A DNA stretch of 64,000 bases, from assembly GCA_002839375.1 (NCBI GenBank), contig PGXY01000010.1, forward strand, positions 62,001-126,000, written 5' to 3'. Shown here in pieces: positions 47,290 to 54,524 of this stretch. The stretch is from Spirochaetae bacterium HGW-Spirochaetae-1. Its GTDB lineage: Bacteria > Spirochaetota > UBA4802 > UBA5550. Below the pieces are notes generated by a model. It searched no databases and was not told the origin of the DNA. It was given only the letters and a program-made list of their open reading frames with translations. A program made the position numbers and the translations under genes. Position 1 is the stretch's first letter. Every line of letters starts with the position of its first letter.

Positions 47290-47937
47290 TTATTTTCCGT
47301 CGGGTGCAGTCCAGTCGATCTTTTCGTTGATAACTCCTGCCAGGGATTCCACTCCCGCATCATCGTGGTAATGCATGCCGGGATTCCGGTCAACGGTGAT
47401 TTTCCCTTTTCTGTCTCTGGTGAATCGGCGTGCCGTATGGTGGGAAGCCGAAACGGTTTCCCCGTTCCCGGTCAGGGAGTCGGCGAGATCAATTGATCCG
47501 TTGCAGACGCAGAAATAGGTATTGGCCGTATCCTCAACTTTTGCGCAGTATGATGTGCCGCGGATGCTGGCTGTAATCGTCGGGCTTTGAATAAGATATC
47601 GGGCCTGCCGGGTAAATGCCTTGCGGGTCACTCCGCTGAACCAGCCTTTCTCCAGCAGCAATATGTTTTTTTCCTGTGATATATTGAAAACCAGCGATGA
47701 ATTGGCCCCCAGGCGGAAGATATTTTTATCCCCCACAAGAATAGTACAGAAGGATTTATCTCCCGTCTCCACACGGTCTCCGAATATTACGGGAATGCCG
47801 CTTCCCATGACTGGAATTTTATTTACGGTGACCCTGCCGGAATAGGCATTGATCAACGCCTCAATCCTGCTCCTTTTTGTGCAGGCAAAAGAAAAAGAAA
47901 CCAATAAGAGCAAAAGAAAAATCGATATTTTTTTCAT
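47290..47937 (-). CDS. FecR-domain lipoprotein
   Basis: 215 residues. MKKISIFLLLLLVSFSFAC is a lipoprotein signal with Cys19. The body is a FecR domain: GDRVETGDKSFCTILVGDKNIFRLGANSSLVF, then IQSPTITASIRGTSYCAKV, the usual TPxAxxxxRGT block. Free FecR domains of this kind are common in spirochaetes and may bind surface polymers rather than regulate iron. The promoter at 48000-48027 starts transcription below the longer frame's start, so 47937 is the true start (AGGAGA nine bases upstream). Confidence 0.85.
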   Translation of the reverse strand: MKKISIFLLLLLVSFSFACTKRSRIEALINAYSGRVTVNKIPVMGSGIPVIFGDRVETGDKSFCTILVGDKNIFRLGANSSLVFNISQEKNILLLEKGWFSGVTRKAFTRQARYLIQSPTITASIRGTSYCAKVEDTANTYFCVCNGSIDLADSLTGNGETVSASHHTARRFTRDRKGKITVDRNPGMHYHDDAGVESLAGVINEKIDWTAPDGK

Positions 47938-47999
47938 AACTAAAACTCTCCTGATGGACCTAATAGTATAATTGCTTCGGTTAATCCTCACATACGTAT

Positions 48000-48027
48000 A
48001 GAATAGCATTTTTATTAGAAATGTCAA
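48000..48027 (-). promoter_or_regulatory. Sigma70 promoter of the FecR gene
   Basis: Minus strand TTGACA (48027-48022), 16 bases, TATTCT (48005-48000). Confidence 0.7.
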
Positions 48028-48103: not shown

Positions 48104-48132
48104 TTGACTTTTTATTTTGCGTGAGGTATAAA
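48104..48132 (+). promoter_or_regulatory. Sigma70 promoter of the SPFH/DUF4178/polyamine operon
   Basis: TTGACT (48104-48109), 17 bases, TATAAA (48127-48132). One of the best promoters in the window. The first start codon follows after a leader of about 115 bases. Confidence 0.78.
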
Positions 48133-48252
48133 ATAACAGTCTGTTTGACCGGCGGATTGTACGTGCTGTACCTTCACTAAAACTTTACAGAGATGCAGGA
48201 CCAAATGCATTTACGATTGATACAACTATCATAAATAAGGGAGAAAACAGAC

Positions 48253-48780
48253 ATGAAACCCGATCTGGACAAGCTCAAGGAGAGAATTTCGGCCAACAGG
48301 GACCTGGTGGACAGGATCACCCGTCAGCTGCCGGGATACGAAGGCTATGTAGAAAAAACTGAAATGTACAATGCCGACAGGATTGTACGGGAATACAGCG
48401 CAGGCCAGTTGAAAAAGCTTAAAGATGAGCTTGAAAGTCATTCAGCCGAAATGTTTCGTGAGAAGAGGACGGCAATTCTGGCTGACCTGGAGCCGCTGAC
48501 ACTGCTCATTGAGAAAGTCTATAAAAAATGTCTTCACGCCGATTATGGCTCCACGGCGTCGCTCAGCAGGATCAAGCTTGGCCCCGATGACATGAACAGG
48601 CTCCTGGAGTACGACTGGCGGCTCGTGGACCGCCTGGCCGCAGTTGGCGGAATTGCCGGTTCCCTGGAATCGCTCGCCGATGATGAACTGAAAAAGAAAT
48701 ACGGAGAAATTAAAAATATGATCAGGGATTTTGACAAGGCCCTTGATGACCGCAAAGACGTAATAATGGAGGTAATATAA
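48253..48780 (+). CDS. Helical protein of unknown function, first gene of the SPFH/DUF4178 operon
   Basis: 175 residues, soluble, nearly all helix. The N-terminal block LPGYEGYVEKTEMYNADRIVRE (residues 25-46) looks like a family signature; I recall similar PGYxGY...ADxxvR segments in uncharacterised proteins beside SPFH genes, but cannot verify this. The rest is charged coiled helix. AAATAAGGGAG precedes the ATG. Its stop codon directly abuts the SPFH ATG, so the two are probably made together. It could be a partner of the SPFH protein; it has no amphipathic N-terminal helix typical of PspA. Confidence 0.65.
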   Translation: MKPDLDKLKERISANRDLVDRITRQLPGYEGYVEKTEMYNADRIVREYSAGQLKKLKDELESHSAEMFREKRTAILADLEPLTLLIEKVYKKCLHADYGSTASLSRIKLGPDDMNRLLEYDWRLVDRLAAVGGIAGSLESLADDELKKKYGEIKNMIRDFDKALDDRKDVIMEVI

Positions 48781-49908
48781 ATGGCGTTGATAGATGTTGT
48801 TGAGTGGAAGAATAAAAAGGATGAAGTCATTTTCCGTTTCCAGGAAGGGGCCATATCCCTGGGCGCCCAGCTCATTGTCATGGAGAACCAGGAGGCAATT
48901 CTTTTCAAGGAAGGGCAAGCCCTGGATTCCTTCGGGCCGGGACGACACACGCTAAAGACCGGAAATATCCCCATCCTGGAGAAGCTTATAAATCTGCCCT
49001 TTGGCGGAAAGACCCCTTTCCCGGCCGAGATATACTTCATCAATAAAACCGAAATTCCTAACCTGAAGTGGGGAACAAAGCAGGCAATGCAGATCATGGA
49101 CCGGAAATTCAATGTGCCGATTCCGGTCCGGGCCTTCGGCAATTATTCCATAAGGATCAGGGATATCAAGCCGTTCCTGATCATGGCTATCGGTACCTGG
49201 CAGGCCTTCAACACCGACGCTATCGGCACGGCCCTGCGGGATCAGATCATCCTGCCCAAGCTGCAGGACCTCATCGCCGAGTTTATGATAAAGCAGAACG
49301 TGATGATATTTGACATCGTGGCATATTATGATGAAATCGGAACAGCGGGAAAAGCGAAGATCGTCGAGGATTTTAACAGCTTCGGCGTGGAGCTGGTCCG
49401 CTTCGCCTTGGAATCCATCAATATCCCCGACGATGACGAGAATGTAATACGGCTGAAAAAGGCCTTGTCTGACAAGGCCGAGATCAATATTATGGGTGAA
49501 GATTACAAGACGAAACGTACCTTCGATACCATGGAAAAAGCCGCTTCCAATGAGGGAATGGCCGGAGGCATGATGGGAGCGGGAATGGGTTTCGGCATGG
49601 GAAACCAGATGGGACAGATGATGAACCAGACCATGGGAGGCGCACAGCAGACCCAGGGACAGCAGGGACAGGTGGCATGTCCGGCCTGCAATACACCCAA
49701 TACAGCCGGTGCCAAATTCTGTGCATCGTGCGGCAAACCCATGGTAGTTGAAAAGGCCTGCCCGGCATGCAAGGCGAAGATGCCGGCCGATGCCAAGTTC
49801 TGTCCCTCGTGCGGCGCCAATACGATGGAAGCGGCATGCGTGAAGTGCGGGGCGAAGCTCAAGCCCGGGGCGAAATTCTGTCCCGAATGCGGATCAAAAC
49901 AGGAATAG
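48781..49908 (+). CDS. SPFH-domain protein with three C-terminal zinc ribbons
   Basis: 375 residues. Residues 1-235 form an SPFH (band 7) domain of the YdjI / 'virion core protein' type: VMENQEAILFKEGQALDSFGPGRHTLKTGNIP and GNYSIRIRDIKPFL. There is no membrane helix; the protein probably binds membrane through the SPFH domain. A Gly/Met/Gln-rich linker (about 260-295) leads to three zinc ribbons, each with paired CxxC motifs (CPACN..CASCG, CPACK..CPSCG, CVKCG..CPECG). Known relatives assemble into large membrane-bound oligomers; the Zn ribbons may recruit the neighbouring zinc-ribbon proteins. Confidence 0.88.
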   Translation: MALIDVVEWKNKKDEVIFRFQEGAISLGAQLIVMENQEAILFKEGQALDSFGPGRHTLKTGNIPILEKLINLPFGGKTPFPAEIYFINKTEIPNLKWGTKQAMQIMDRKFNVPIPVRAFGNYSIRIRDIKPFLIMAIGTWQAFNTDAIGTALRDQIILPKLQDLIAEFMIKQNVMIFDIVAYYDEIGTAGKAKIVEDFNSFGVELVRFALESINIPDDDENVIRLKKALSDKAEINIMGEDYKTKRTFDTMEKAASNEGMAGGMMGAGMGFGMGNQMGQMMNQTMGGAQQTQGQQGQVACPACNTPNTAGAKFCASCGKPMVVEKACPACKAKMPADAKFCPSCGANTMEAACVKCGAKLKPGAKFCPECGSKQE

Positions 49909-49918
49909 GAGTACAGGC

Positions 49919-50524
49919 ATGGCATCACTCAATTGCACGTCATGCGGGGCTCCCGTGGAAATCAACAACAGGTTCAGCAAGGTCCTGGTATGCAACTACT
50001 GCGGCACTCACCTGAAGATAGAAGGAGAAGGGAGTCTCAGCGAATCGGGCAAATTCCCGAAACTGGCTGATTTCCCTTCGATCCTTTCCGTAGGATGCAG
50101 CGGAACCATCCTGGGAAAGCCCTTTTCTGCCCTGGGCAGGATGCAGTACAAGGGTGACTGGGGCCGCTATAACGAATGGTTTATAGAACACGACGGCGAA
50201 ACGGCCTGGCTCACCGAGGATGAAGGAGCCTTCACTCTTTTCAGCGAAATGTACGATGCCGCCGATATCCCCGATGTGGCTACCCTGCGTGCCGGGCAGA
50301 ATATCAACGTGGCCGGTAAAAAGATCATGGTGAAGGAAATCGGCAAGGCCTTTGTAGAAGGCGGTGAGGGTGAGCTCTATTACTATGTTGAACCGGGAAC
50401 GGAGGTTACCTTTATCGACGGTGTGGGAGAAGGGAAAAAGGTATCCATAGAATATTCTGAAAATGAAGTGGAGCTTTTCACCGGAAGGCCGTTGTTGAAA
50501 AGGGATATCGTTGTTGGTGCGTGA
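49919..50524 (+). CDS. DUF4178 protein with N-terminal zinc ribbon, soluble
   Basis: 201 residues. Cys6, Cys9, Cys25 and Cys28 make a zinc ribbon (CTSCG, CNYCG). A single DUF4178 domain follows, with GTILGKPFSALGRMQYKG and the YNEWFIEHDGETAWLTEDEG block that marks the family. DUF4178 proteins occur with spermidine synthase and DUF350 genes in many bacteria; their function is unknown. AGGAGT lies just upstream of the ATG, ten bases after the SPFH gene. Confidence 0.85.
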   Translation: MASLNCTSCGAPVEINNRFSKVLVCNYCGTHLKIEGEGSLSESGKFPKLADFPSILSVGCSGTILGKPFSALGRMQYKGDWGRYNEWFIEHDGETAWLTEDEGAFTLFSEMYDAADIPDVATLRAGQNINVAGKKIMVKEIGKAFVEGGEGELYYYVEPGTEVTFIDGVGEGKKVSIEYSENEVELFTGRPLLKRDIVVGA

Positions 50525-50593
50525 TGTACCGGCTGCGGCTATCGGAATGTTTTTAGCTGTTATGCTGAATATGAATAGGGATAGAGGTTGATC

Positions 50594-51991
50594 ATGGGCG
50601 ATGAACAGGAAAAACTGAAAGCCTTGAAATGCCATGATTGCGGCGGAGATATAGTTAAAAGCTATCGCGTCGAAGGCGATGATGAGGACGAGGAGCAGAT
50701 ACCCATCGCCAGGTGTCTTTCCTGCGGCAGGGAATACGATCAGCACACCCAGGAATATTACGCATATTTTGCCGATAGCTTCATCACCGACAAGGACAAG
50801 TCGGTTTTTAAACTGGGCCTCAAGGGGACACTGAACGGCGTGGAATACGAGATAATCGGCCGACTCAGGTACCAGGATGAGGATGAGTATGAACTGGATA
50901 CCTGGGACGAGTGGCTAGCCATCACTGCCGAGGGGGCCTACCATTATTTTGTTGAAGAAGACGGCGACGTCCACTCCTATGAGGAATATATCCCCGAAAC
51001 GATCGATCTCGAGAGCAGCGGCAGCAGCATCGAGTTTGAAGGAAAAAAAATATCGAAGAGCGAGGCCTATATCGGGAGGATCGTTTACGCCGAGGGTGAA
51101 CTGCCCTGGAGTCCGGAAATCGGCGAGGCCGTCACTCTTTACGATTTTAAAAAAGACGGCTGCAATTATACCATAGAACAATCCGATGAAGAGGTTTCGA
51201 TTACCAAGGGTGAACGCATTCCCTATAAACAGATAATCGATGCCTTTGGCGGCGATCAGTATAAAGAAATGTATGACGCCACCATAAAGAAAAGAAAAGA
51301 ATTCACGTGGAAATCCCGGGTGTATCTGGCAGTCATGCTGGTGTCCCTGGTGATGGCTCTTTACAAGTGCTCATCTGGCAGCGCCATAGAGAATATAATG
51401 GCCATGACAAAAGTGATTTCCACCAATGTCTACATGCAGGATGAGGGCGGGGCAAATTATTTCAGCCAGGTATTGTACGGCCCCTTTGAGATCCCCGAAC
51501 CCGACAGGCTCTATGAATTCAGCGTATCCATCGACGAGGCGGTGCAGCCCCTCAGCCAGGAATGGGAATCCTTCAGGCTCATGCTTATACAGGAAGACCG
51601 GCTCAACCAGGTCACGGATAATATGACCGATTTTAATGAACTGAAGGAGATGCTCACGGAGATAGACGCTCAGAAGGAGCCCGTGGAATCCTATGTCGTA
51701 AACGGGGATTTCTGGGACGAGGAAGGATACGACAGCGATGGCCGCTGGCATGAAAACGACCTGTCCGCATCGTCGAGCTTTGTTCTCGATGAGGCAGGGA
51801 GGTATTTTGCCTATCTGGAGCTTTACAGCAAGAATGCCCGGAATGTCGATTCGGTAAAGATCGCCCTGAGCAGCGCCGGGAGTGTTCGGTATTTTATAAT
51901 TCTTTTTGTGATATTTTTTATTCTTTTCATGCTGAACAGGTCGAAGGCCGCCACTTACAATGCGCTTCCTTTCGAGGTGGGAAGTGATTGA
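50594..51991 (+). CDS. DUF4178 protein with zinc ribbon, two membrane helices and an outer domain
   Basis: 465 residues. Zinc ribbon Cys13/16/41/44 with an acidic loop between the pairs. A DUF4178 domain (70-205) repeats the W-D-E-W...Y-H-Y-F-V-E-E-D-G pattern. Helices near 243-258 and 432-450 flank a domain of about 170 residues that should lie outside the inner membrane (FSQVLYGPFEIPEPDRLYEFSV; SSFVLDEAGRYFAYLELYS), beta-rich. It could sense something in the periplasm and signal to the cytoplasmic zinc-ribbon/DUF4178 part. ATG 50594 is favoured over TTG 50588. Confidence 0.82.
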   Translation: MGDEQEKLKALKCHDCGGDIVKSYRVEGDDEDEEQIPIARCLSCGREYDQHTQEYYAYFADSFITDKDKSVFKLGLKGTLNGVEYEIIGRLRYQDEDEYELDTWDEWLAITAEGAYHYFVEEDGDVHSYEEYIPETIDLESSGSSIEFEGKKISKSEAYIGRIVYAEGELPWSPEIGEAVTLYDFKKDGCNYTIEQSDEEVSITKGERIPYKQIIDAFGGDQYKEMYDATIKKRKEFTWKSRVYLAVMLVSLVMALYKCSSGSAIENIMAMTKVISTNVYMQDEGGANYFSQVLYGPFEIPEPDRLYEFSVSIDEAVQPLSQEWESFRLMLIQEDRLNQVTDNMTDFNELKEMLTEIDAQKEPVESYVVNGDFWDEEGYDSDGRWHENDLSASSSFVLDEAGRYFAYLELYSKNARNVDSVKIALSSAGSVRYFIILFVIFFILFMLNRSKAATYNALPFEVGSD

Positions 51992-52042
51992 TATTTGATT
52001 ATTTGTTAAACCGGTTATATAGTCCGGAAAGGGGTAGGGGTG

Positions 52043-52237
52043 ATGATAAAAAGTGTAGCTTTGGCATTGGTGCTCTTGTCGGGGGGATTTGCCCTGTCGC
52101 ATTTTTATGTGGGATATCCCAGGGCAGGAAAATACTATATTTCCAAACACCGTGAGCAGCGCAAATCCCTGCGGATGGGGAGCGGCTACTACGGAACGCG
52201 CATGGGTTCCGGAAGTTTTCGCGGCGGCGGGAAGTAG
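52043..52237 (+). CDS. Tiny secreted or membrane protein with an RGGGK tail
   Basis: 64 residues. A hydrophobic N terminus (MIKSVALALVLLSGGFALSHFYVG) is followed by a basic stretch and a Gly/Ser/Tyr tail ending FRGGGK. In related operons a DUF4247 protein often occupies this spot and I recall similar Gly-rich Arg-Lys tails in it; this is only a weak resemblance. GGGGTAGGGG precedes the start; GTG 52040 is an alternative. Real gene status is supported by position and spacing. Confidence 0.55.
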   Translation: MIKSVALALVLLSGGFALSHFYVGYPRAGKYYISKHREQRKSLRMGSGYYGTRMGSGSFRGGGK

Positions 52238-52297
52238 TTGGTCCACCGGCAAGAATTTTTTGCAGAGCAATCATATTAAATCAGGAGGATAGTATTA

Positions 52298-52576
52298 ATG
52301 GAATGGGGACAATATCTTTACGGCATTCTCGATACGGTGGTGTATTCTTTTATCGGGCTTATAATAATGGGGATCGGCTTTCTGCTTATAACACTTTTCT
52401 CTCCCTTTTCAATCAAGAAGGAAATTGAGGATGATCAGAATATCGCCCTGGGGCTTATTATCGGTTCCGTCATCATTGGGATTTCCATTATCATTGCGTC
52501 CGTTATTGCAACGCCGTCGGGCTCCAACCCGGTGAAAAAGGCGCCGGCGCAGGTTGAAATGAAGACCGATAAGTAG
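52298..52576 (+). CDS. DUF350 small membrane protein
   Basis: 92 residues with two membrane helices (VVYSFIGLIIMGIGFLLITLF; IALGLIIGSVIIGISIIIASVIA), the DUF350/YjfL pattern. The polar C terminus (SNPVKKAPAQVEMKTDK) is probably cytoplasmic. In Escherichia coli, DUF350 YjfL is in an operon with a PspA paralogue and a glutathionylspermidine-synthase-like gene; here it precedes a spermidine-synthase-like gene. AGGAGG precedes the ATG and its stop shares one base with the next start. Confidence 0.88.
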   Translation: MEWGQYLYGILDTVVYSFIGLIIMGIGFLLITLFSPFSIKKEIEDDQNIALGLIIGSVIIGISIIIASVIATPSGSNPVKKAPAQVEMKTDK

Positions 52577-54102
52577 TGAAAGACAATTTTTCCCTTTCAC
52601 AGCAGAGGATCCTTCTTTTCTCGATCTTTGTCCTTTCTCTCTGCGGCATAACGTATGAACTGGTTCTGGGTTCACTGGCGACTTATCTGCTGGGGAACCC
52701 GGTGCAGCAGTATTCCATCACCATCGGTGTCTTTCTCAGTTCCATGGGGCTGGGTTCCTGGCTTTCACGGTACGTGCTGAAGAATATCCTGAGGAACTTC
52801 ATATGGATAGAGGTGACCCTGGGACTCGTGGGCGGCGTCTCGGTCATCATACTCAATTACCTGTTCAGCTTTTCGCCGTCCTTTTATCTTCTCCATGTCT
52901 TTCTGCTTTCTTTCATCGGGATGCTCGTGGGCCTGGAGATTCCACTGCTGACGAGGATTCTCCGCGGCTACGGCTCTCTTAAGGATGTTCTTTCCAACGT
53001 GCTCACCCTGGACTATATGGGCGGCCTTGCCGGATCGCTGCTTTTCCCCCTGGTTCTCTTTCCCTTCCTGGGGAGGATCATGACGTCCCTGGTCATCGGT
53101 ATAGCCAATGCGGCGGTGGCCGTGATTATTGTCACGCGGATTAAATATTCCGGGAAACGGCGCATCGATTATATTTATCCTCTCGTTGTCGTTGGTATCC
53201 TGACGGTGCTGGTGCTTCAGTCGGGTGTCGTGACCGATATTCTGGAGAAAAGGCTTTACTATGATGATATCGTATTCTCACGGAGGTCCACGTACCAGGA
53301 GATAGTGCTGACCCGGAACGGCGACGATTTCAGGCTTTACCTCGACGGATCGCTGCAGTTTTCAACATACGATGAATACCGTTATCACGAGATGCTGGTA
53401 TATCCTCCCCTGGCGTTCAACGGAAAGGGCGATAAACAGGTTCTGGTCATGGGTGGCGGTGACGGCCTGGCGTTGCGGGAGCTCGTCAAGCAGGACGATG
53501 TACGCTCCGTGACCCTGGTGGAACTGGACCCCATGATGCTCGACCTGGCCCGGAACAATTCAAGCCTGAAAAGAATTAACGGGAATTCCCTGGTCCACCC
53601 AAAGGTGAATGTCGTGGCGGGCGATGCCTATGATTTTCTTGTGAAAAGCGGACGGACCTTTGATATTATAATTGCTGATTTCCCCGATCCCCATGATGAG
53701 ACCATTTCAAAGCTCTATACGGTACAGTTTTTCAAGCTGGTGAAGCGTTCCATGGCCCCGGGGGCCATTTTCGTCTCCCAGTCCACGTCGCCTCTCTTTG
53801 CCCGCGAGGCCTTCTGGTGCATTCACAACACTATGAAAAAGGTCTTTCCCCATGTAGTTCCCTATCACGTTTTTGTTCCCACCTTCGGTGACTGGGGGTA
53901 TAACATGGCTTCCTTCTCGGAAATAAAACCGAAAGATGCCGATGTTTCGCGGCAGGGACTCCGGTTTTTTACGAGGGAGACGTTTGTCCAGTCACAGCAC
54001 TTTCCACCCGACTGTGGAGAAATATCAACGGAAATTAATACCTTTAACCGGCCGGTCCTCTATACCTATTATATCAAGGGCTGGAAGAACGTTGACTATT
54101 GA
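52576..54102 (+). CDS. Membrane-embedded spermidine-synthase-like aminopropyltransferase
   Basis: 508 residues from GTG. Residues 1-220 contain about seven membrane helices; 225-460 are a spermidine-synthase domain. Conserved parts: LDGSLQFSTYDEYRYHEMLVYPPL with His271-Glu272, GGGDGLALRE (293-302), VTLVELDP and ADFPDP (Asp368, Asp371), matching the putrescine and decarboxy-SAM sites. The enzyme should transfer an aminopropyl group to putrescine or a related acceptor, perhaps at the membrane face. Its membrane part is not present in classical SpeE and may move the amine or anchor it. Confidence 0.88.
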   Translation: MKDNFSLSQQRILLFSIFVLSLCGITYELVLGSLATYLLGNPVQQYSITIGVFLSSMGLGSWLSRYVLKNILRNFIWIEVTLGLVGGVSVIILNYLFSFSPSFYLLHVFLLSFIGMLVGLEIPLLTRILRGYGSLKDVLSNVLTLDYMGGLAGSLLFPLVLFPFLGRIMTSLVIGIANAAVAVIIVTRIKYSGKRRIDYIYPLVVVGILTVLVLQSGVVTDILEKRLYYDDIVFSRRSTYQEIVLTRNGDDFRLYLDGSLQFSTYDEYRYHEMLVYPPLAFNGKGDKQVLVMGGGDGLALRELVKQDDVRSVTLVELDPMMLDLARNNSSLKRINGNSLVHPKVNVVAGDAYDFLVKSGRTFDIIIADFPDPHDETISKLYTVQFFKLVKRSMAPGAIFVSQSTSPLFAREAFWCIHNTMKKVFPHVVPYHVFVPTFGDWGYNMASFSEIKPKDADVSRQGLRFFTRETFVQSQHFPPDCGEISTEINTFNRPVLYTYYIKGWKNVDY

Positions 54103-54113
54103 TTGATGGGATG

Positions 54114-54524
54114 ATGAAGATACAGGGAATCAGTCATATTACTTTCATCGTCCGGGATCTGGAGAGATCGGCACATCTTTTCACTTATCTTTTCGGCGCC
54201 AGGGAAGTTTATTCCAGCGGTGACAGGTATCATTCTCTCACACGGGAAAAATTTCTGATGATAGGTGAACTATGGATAGCCCTGATGGAAGGTGATCCCG
54301 TGGCGGAGAAGACGTATAATCATATTGCATTCCGGGTTTCCAGCGATGATCTTCCCCGCTATCATGATATGGTTGAAGAATTGAAACTTGAAATCATGCA
54401 GTCCCGTCCCAGAGTACCCGGCGAGGGGGAGTCGCTGTATTTTTATGACTACGACAATCATCTGTTTGAACTGCATGCGGGCGATTGTAACGAGAGGGTG
54501 GAAGCCTATGTCCAGCCTGGATAA
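54114..54524 (+). CDS. fosX: FosX-type fosfomycin hydrolase
   Basis: 136 residues, the size of FosX. The vicinal oxygen chelate metal ligands His8, His70 and Glu119 are in ISHITF, YNHIAF and HLFELH, and Glu45 in TREKF matches the catalytic base that activates water in FosX. Long stretches agree with the Listeria type: VYSSGD, LWIALMEGD, RPRVPGEG, YFYDYDNHLFELHAG. It probably opens the fosfomycin epoxide with Mn2+. It starts 11 bases after the aminopropyltransferase; ATG 54111 is an alternative start. Confidence 0.85.
   Translation: MKIQGISHITFIVRDLERSAHLFTYLFGAREVYSSGDRYHSLTREKFLMIGELWIALMEGDPVAEKTYNHIAFRVSSDDLPRYHDMVEELKLEIMQSRPRVPGEGESLYFYDYDNHLFELHAGDCNERVEAYVQPG

Follow-up and report, generated by a model that had tools for sequence, protein, structure and literature searches.

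A conserved operon in Spirochaetota combines a membrane-fused aminopropyltransferase with a tail protein whose C-terminal lysine is a candidate acceptor

We analyzed a block of seven genes in the genome of Spirochaetae bacterium HGW-Spirochaetae-1, a member of the phylum Spirochaetota. The genes lie on the plus strand between positions 48253 and 54102 of a 64,000-nucleotide stretch (assembly GCA_002839375.1, contig PGXY01000010.1, positions 62,001 to 126,000), which we refer to in full as the window. The original prediction for this locus described seven tightly spaced genes for a membrane-associated system making or sensing polyamines. All seven were confirmed as consecutive genes, named orf1 to orf7 (Table 1). 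They are separated by 0, 10, 63, 48, 60 and -1 base pairs (bp), the last value being an overlap of orf6 and orf7, and most of their products are linked to the membrane. The polyamine part of the prediction has to be revised because the invariant part of the system is the protein encoded by orf5, here called the tail protein, with its C-terminal lysine. This feature favors modification of the tail over the making or sensing of polyamines. We propose with moderate confidence that the seven genes specify a membrane-bound system for protein aminopropylation, in which the orf7 enzyme modifies the terminal lysine of orf5.

Table 1. Features of the operon region, in window coordinates
Feature	Position	Strand	Basis and remarks
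Promoter-like element TTGACT-17-TATAAA	48104-48132	+	Predicted from sequence; 5' of orf1
orf1, helical protein of 175 amino acids	48253-48780	+	Distant relative of the LIMLP_15305 family
orf2, SPFH protein (Band_7_1) with three C-terminal zinc ribbons	48781-49908	+	Pfam, 159 bits
orf3, soluble zinc-ribbon DUF4178 protein	49919-50524	+	Pfam, 41 bits (cut-off 25)
orf4, zinc-ribbon DUF4178 protein with two hydrophobic helices flanking a further domain	50588-51991	+	Pfam, 50 bits (cut-off 25)
orf5, tail protein of 65 amino acids	52040-52237	+	One hydrophobic helix and a basic tail ending ..SGSFRGGGK; proposed acceptor
orf6, short DUF350 membrane protein	52298-52576	+	Pfam, 53 bits; alignment to about half of the profile
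orf7, membrane-fused aminopropyltransferase	52576-54102	+	NCBIfam PRK03612, 573 bits (cut-off 472)
FosX-type gene	54114-54524		11 bp 3' of orf7; NCBIfam, 186 bits (cut-off 170)

The gene neighborhoods of relatives bear out the earlier claim that these families occur together. A search for orf1 that took in 59 whole genomes gave matches in 17, the source genome counted. Among the neighborhoods of the 16 other matches, 14 showed the gene order and strand of the window; 12 of these contain all seven genes complete, and two lie on contigs that end inside the block. Identity of orf2 in the relatives is 66-75%. Retention of order and strand in 14 relatives is beyond chance, and the seven genes are one conserved unit. 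The most distant orf1 matches (L034 and L035) represent different loci, with only the orf1-SPFH pair present in L034. This pair (L034, 7114-8698, genome G049), in which the SPFH protein has a SHOCT end, stands apart from the tail operon of that genome (L072).

A smaller core of this unit is spread far more widely. Among the 393 genomes of the window's phylum that were searched, 39 carry the DUF4178 domain, and the neighborhoods read there mostly show a core of DUF4178, a small protein, DUF350 and the synthase, without orf1 and SPFH. Scanning public genomes with an alignment of the synthase gave 80 named loci from many phyla, which are the best matches of that one scan; open reading frames (ORFs) were called mechanically throughout. 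SPFH was detected in 18 of the 80 loci, and orf1 in none of these loci of other phyla. A pattern scan of public genome contigs also gave no orf1 relative, and the relatives found by the whole-genome search belong to the window's phylum. Based on these three sets of neighborhoods, we conclude that the synthase, DUF350, DUF4178 and the small protein form the core, that SPFH is a frequent partner, and that orf1 is lineage-specific so far.

The small protein of the core is defined by its end. The final GK of orf5 is invariant in the 14 relatives. The bodies of tail proteins fall into about 30 BLAST clusters, most types cannot be aligned, and an alignment of 15 types contains no invariant column. 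They range from proteins of 45 amino acids to lipoproteins of up to 510 amino acids and fusions to the C-terminal end of DUF4178, the latter in Clostridia (L110, L139 and L157). Lysine nonetheless occupies position -1 in 87 of 87 tail proteins, part of which were gathered with this lysine as a criterion. Position -2 is glycine in 67 of them and histidine in 20. Lysine is absent from positions -2 to -4 and rare (0 to 5%) at positions -2 to -12 as a whole, compared with 100% at -1. A further tail ending in FGFGK (L066) was not counted in this set.

Choice by end residue was avoided in a slot test, in which ORFs were picked by length and by their position between the last DUF4178 gene and the DUF350 gene. 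A tail ending in lysine was found in 39 of 39 loci from other phyla. It was the longest ORF in 33 loci, the next ORF in three, and a DUF4178 fusion in the three remaining loci, from Clostridia. Synthase, DUF350 and DUF4178 proteins at the slot loci end in lysine in 5 of 140 cases, and long ORFs across the 80 loci do so in 77 of 769. A stricter tail pattern was present in 63 of 66 operon loci versus 6 of 3863 reverse-strand ORFs. Two of the three misses are contigs that start within DUF350, and the third is a tail ending in KQYHK that fails the composition rule alone.

We then considered the synthases that stand alone. Fourteen of the 80 loci have no DUF4178 or DUF350 gene nearby, and one of them (L112) has an adjoining tail lipoprotein. 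If the synthase needs a tail, the other 13 genomes should encode one elsewhere. DUF4178 was found in all 13, against roughly a tenth of the genomes of the window's phylum, and DUF350 in 12. Twelve of the 13 genomes contain an ORF with a [GH]K end adjoining these unlinked genes, and we rejected an initial view that a synthase standing alone lacks a tail. Two of the unlinked tail loci that we read (L268 and L274) have the order DUF350, SPFH-like protein, DUF4178, tail. The converse case occurs in four genomes of one family, where an orphan tail operon is accompanied by a full-length membrane synthase with the motif PSFGEWG elsewhere. The end of an Alteromonas plasmid lipoprotein was predicted before being read and was found to be GPSSGK. 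An Alteromonas plasmid operon (L216, 6539-7645) also carries a gene annotated as a 'toxic anion resistance protein' between speD and DUF4178.

The catalytic residues of orf7 are intact. Among 63 orf7 relatives, residues Q261, D266, E267, Y270, D318, D350, D368 and D371 are invariant, and the GGGDG motif is exact in 61; roles in catalysis and in binding decarboxylated S-adenosylmethionine were transferred to these residues from known spermidine synthase structures. A structural model of orf7 (mean predicted local distance difference test score, pLDDT, of 95) has its catalytic domain from about residue 228, containing the conserved Asp368 and Asp371. From about residue 220, the model matches aminopropyltransferases (Foldseek E 3e-16), among them 1uir (Z 35.4, root-mean-square deviation 2.9, 278 residues aligned). 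The C-terminal part of orf7 resembles thermospermine synthase. The fold (Z 28.8-35.4) and catalytic residues are common to orf7 and soluble SpeE. Unlike SpeE, orf7 has a membrane domain in front and the family motif P[ST]FG[DE]WG, and the first 25 residues of Escherichia coli SpeE have no aligned counterpart in the orf7 family.

A supply of the aminopropyl donor is encoded apart from the operon. The source genome has one S-adenosylmethionine decarboxylase, SpeD (G000:C6:73841), which is unlinked to the block. No second Spermine_synth protein was found in this genome, leaving orf7 as the sole aminopropyltransferase detected. Within the window's family, SpeD is present in 10 of 11 operon-bearing genomes versus 3 of 9 operon-free genomes, and at 26 of the 39 slot loci it is encoded inside the locus. 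To our knowledge, the acceptor of membrane-fused enzymes resembling spermidine synthase is an open question.

We compared the operon to known envelope and polyamine systems. Ravi et al. 2024 (PMC11237479) describe a 'second major group' of operons that combine PspA and CesT/Tir with a seven-transmembrane spermidine synthase fusion, DUF350, DUF4178 and a lipoprotein, and they also mention aminopropylation of other substrates. The membrane-fused synthase, DUF350 and DUF4178 are all present in the window. The window differs in having two DUF4178 proteins and in having SPFH and orf1 in place of PspA and CesT/Tir. The absence of PspA noted in the original prediction extends to the whole source genome at E <= 0.001, and no CesT match was found among the operon proteins. 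Within the taxonomic order to which the window belongs, PspA scores above its cut-off in genome G028 only, inside that genome's own synthase operon. This operon is of the type described by Ravi et al., and its lipoprotein likewise ends in GK. In the window, the lipoprotein is replaced by orf5, which has no lipobox cysteine but the same [GH]K end.

Other systems share parts of this arrangement. The Novosphingobium plasmid NZ_CP063446 has the order SPFH-DUF4178-DUF4178-tail-DUF350-synthase, with a tail ending in GPSHK. It differs from the window in lacking orf1, in the flavin adenine dinucleotide (FAD) oxidoreductase gene and speD that come after the synthase, and in its SPFH protein, which has no zinc ribbons at its end in the stretch read. 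In Bacillus subtilis, the SPFH protein YdjI recruits PspA (PMC8581546). The pspA-ydjGHI operon (PMC8581546; domains in PMC11237479) resembles the window in encoding an SPFH protein with a C-terminal zinc ribbon together with zinc-ribbon membrane partners. The window lacks PspA and the TPM-domain protein YdjH, and the descriptions of pspA-ydjGHI include neither a synthase nor DUF350 or DUF4178.

A sister case is provided by the E. coli operons ygiBC and yjfIJKLMC, which encode DUF350, a DUF1190 protein and a peptide-spermidine ligase. YgiC and YjfC are cited in PMC12568646 as peptide-spermidine ligases (Pederick et al. 2023). As in the window, DUF350 is accompanied by an enzyme of polyamine type and by an exported protein whose end is fixed. 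The enzyme is an ATP-grasp ligase instead of an aminopropyltransferase, and the end is GG instead of K. No ATP-grasp domain was found in the eight proteins of the operon region of the window. Partners of ATP-grasp ligases end in glycine in nine of nine cases (GG in eight and CG in one): E. coli YgiB and YjfM, and seven plasmid proteins from Vibrio, Rhizobium, Sulfitobacter, Pseudomonas, Acinetobacter, Asticcacaulis and Arthrobacter. The contrast can come down to the last letter, as in an Acinetobacter partner ending in ..GFSFGG with a ligase and a Nitrospinaceae protein ending in ..GFSFGK with an aminopropyltransferase. The glycine ends (L175, L176 and L218-L224) often follow an RGGFG-like stretch, which is likely a signature of ligase substrates.

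We therefore consider the terminal lysine a candidate acceptor, because a constant end is found on otherwise dissimilar proteins that accompany one type of amine-aminopropylating enzyme, and because the end residue tracks the enzyme in the sister DUF350/ATP-grasp operons. In the pathway we propose, decarboxylated S-adenosylmethionine from the unlinked SpeD would feed the aminopropyltransferase domain of orf7. The enzyme would move an aminopropyl group not onto putrescine but onto the side-chain amine of the single, glycine-preceded C-terminal lysine of orf5. The C-terminal lysine would thereby become aminopropylated and form a short, polyamine-like cationic end fixed at the membrane. The products of orf6, orf3, orf4, orf2 and orf1 may help to assemble this unit, present it or control it in the maintenance of the envelope; in this lineage, orf1 and SPFH occupy the place held elsewhere by PspA and the CesT/Tir chaperone. 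That lysine accepts the group, how many aminopropyl units are added, what the other proteins do and that the unit serves the envelope are inferences from these patterns.

An unlikely alternative is that orf7, bound to the membrane, produces polyamine that is released in its vicinity. The tail would then be a small subunit or regulator, and its lysine a recognition or charge element that might, for instance, gate the enzyme or DUF350 by mimicking an amine. The catalytic residues of orf7 match those of ordinary aminopropyltransferases, so small amines could serve as acceptors, and bacteria commonly have small membrane subunits with regulatory roles. A gating element should, however, conserve more than its last two residues, whereas the tail bodies vary widely, and the terminal residue switches with the enzyme type in the sister operons. 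Membrane-fused synthases reportedly do not replace spermidine synthase, either. Taken together, the evidence points to modification of the tail protein rather than release of a free polyamine.

Modification might instead occur at the C-terminal carboxylate of the tail, or a different enzyme such as the FAD amine oxidase of some operons might carry it out, with the lysine as a recognition site and the synthase supplying the amine. Peptide-spermidine ligases do operate in the sister operons, and some operons include a FAD amine oxidoreductase. Given that no ligase was found among the operon proteins of the window and that such an oxidoreductase is absent from its operon, we regard this scheme as improbable. 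The C-terminal lysine could also be an artefact of composition or ORF choice, as tails contain many G, S, R, Y and H residues and the lysine was itself a criterion for collecting some of them, but the slot test, the restriction of lysine to position -1 and the scarcity of the pattern on reverse strands leave this explanation almost no likelihood.

We also examined the membrane topology of orf7 and the tail proteins. The membrane domains of the orf7 family carry 10.7 Lys+Arg per sequence on the N-terminal side versus 1.2 on the opposite side. All 63 sequences show the bias in this direction, which places the N terminus of orf7 inside. Seven hydropathy peaks would then place the catalytic domain outside. 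In the structural model, however, the helix spanning residues 135-188 is unbroken, and this favors six crossings with the catalytic domain in the cytoplasm. For 30 short tail proteins from other phyla, charges indicate an N-in, C-out orientation in 29, with one tie, and tails of the lipoprotein type carry an export signal.

Several observations weigh against the modification of orf5 by orf7. The evidence on the membrane side of the orf7 domain is divided, as charges favor seven crossings and the model six. The orientation of the tail in the window's clade is also ambiguous, with a mean net charge of +1.9 before the helix and +1.4 after it. The loci and genomes are related by descent, so that the counts of lysine ends are not independent trials. 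One of the lone-synthase genomes, a Conchiformibius assembly (G395), has the synthase and DUF4178, and no tail was found beside them. In genome G001 the operon is present and SpeD was not found. Finally, none of the genes checked beside a haloarchaeal synthase relative encodes a protein ending in lysine. On a haloarchaeal plasmid (L217, 2020-6340), a membrane-type spermidine synthase lies beside DUF2617 and a lipoprotein without a terminal lysine, and the lysine rule may fail there, as it may in Actinobacteria.

Membrane-fused enzymes resembling spermidine synthase are widespread in bacteria, and the tail lysine offers a concrete candidate for their acceptor. If our proposal is true, an aminopropylated C-terminal lysine would be a new protein modification. 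It would link two families of polyamine operons, one with aminopropyltransferases and lysine ends and the other with peptide-spermidine ligases and glycine ends, and it would help to explain why envelope operons bring polyamine enzymes together with PspA, SPFH and DUF350. A broader and rather doubtful extension is that membrane-fused aminopropyltransferases in general are protein modifiers with an extracytoplasmic catalytic domain. Decarboxylated S-adenosylmethionine would then cross the membrane, and the lysine or glycine end would mark which chemistry equips the tail. The PspA-free operon variant with orf1 and SPFH is new, as is the [GH]K tail as a candidate acceptor. We found no mention of this tail in the literature, although key subscription papers fell outside our search and priority cannot be excluded.

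The remaining proteins were characterized by family searches and modeling. The original prediction placed a helical protein of unknown kind at the head of the operon. That position stands, but the protein is a lineage-specific, distant relative of the LIMLP_15305 family from Leptospira (62.5 bits, E 4e-17, residues 7-171 aligned), below the family's curated cut-off of 210 bits. It gave no hidden Markov model match to PspA, and we rejected the idea that orf1 is a hidden PspA. A single-sequence model of orf1 (pLDDT 65) matched talin-rod and FAT-type bundles as well as designed bundles. As modeled, this arrangement is one common to helical bundles generally, and the low confidence of the model leaves the fold open. 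The orf5 protein has no Pfam or NCBIfam family above its cut-off, and assignment to TM2 was rejected (19.5 bits, cut-off 27.9). The four N-terminal cysteines of orf3 (C6, C9, C25 and C28) and of orf4 (C15, C18, C43 and C46) are invariant among relatives. Zinc ribbons had been taken as a pointer to a polyamine assembly, but they are uninformative on polyamines.

Some neighboring genes vary among loci. A FAD amine oxidoreductase gene follows the synthase in other phyla (L117, 8512-10122; L213, 5442-7058), and an aminopropylated product could be the substrate of this enzyme. An AsmA-family gene takes the position of the synthase 3' of DUF350 in one family of the window's phylum, where the synthase is found elsewhere in the genome (L080, 11211-13316). 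Promoter-like matches are frequent in this stretch (13 found versus 8.8 expected), so that the strong promoter of the original prediction is a putative one. The interval first assigned to the system, 48104-54524, contains all seven genes but also takes in the FosX-type gene. We rejected this gene as a member of the unit since it has a counterpart in 0 of 16 related stretches compared; it is perhaps cotranscribed with the operon by chance. On the other side of the operon, a divergent gene on the minus strand (47290-48027) encodes a lipoprotein-like protein with a FecR domain, which weakly resembles the adhesin family Lsa33 of Leptospira (40 bits against a cut-off of 420).

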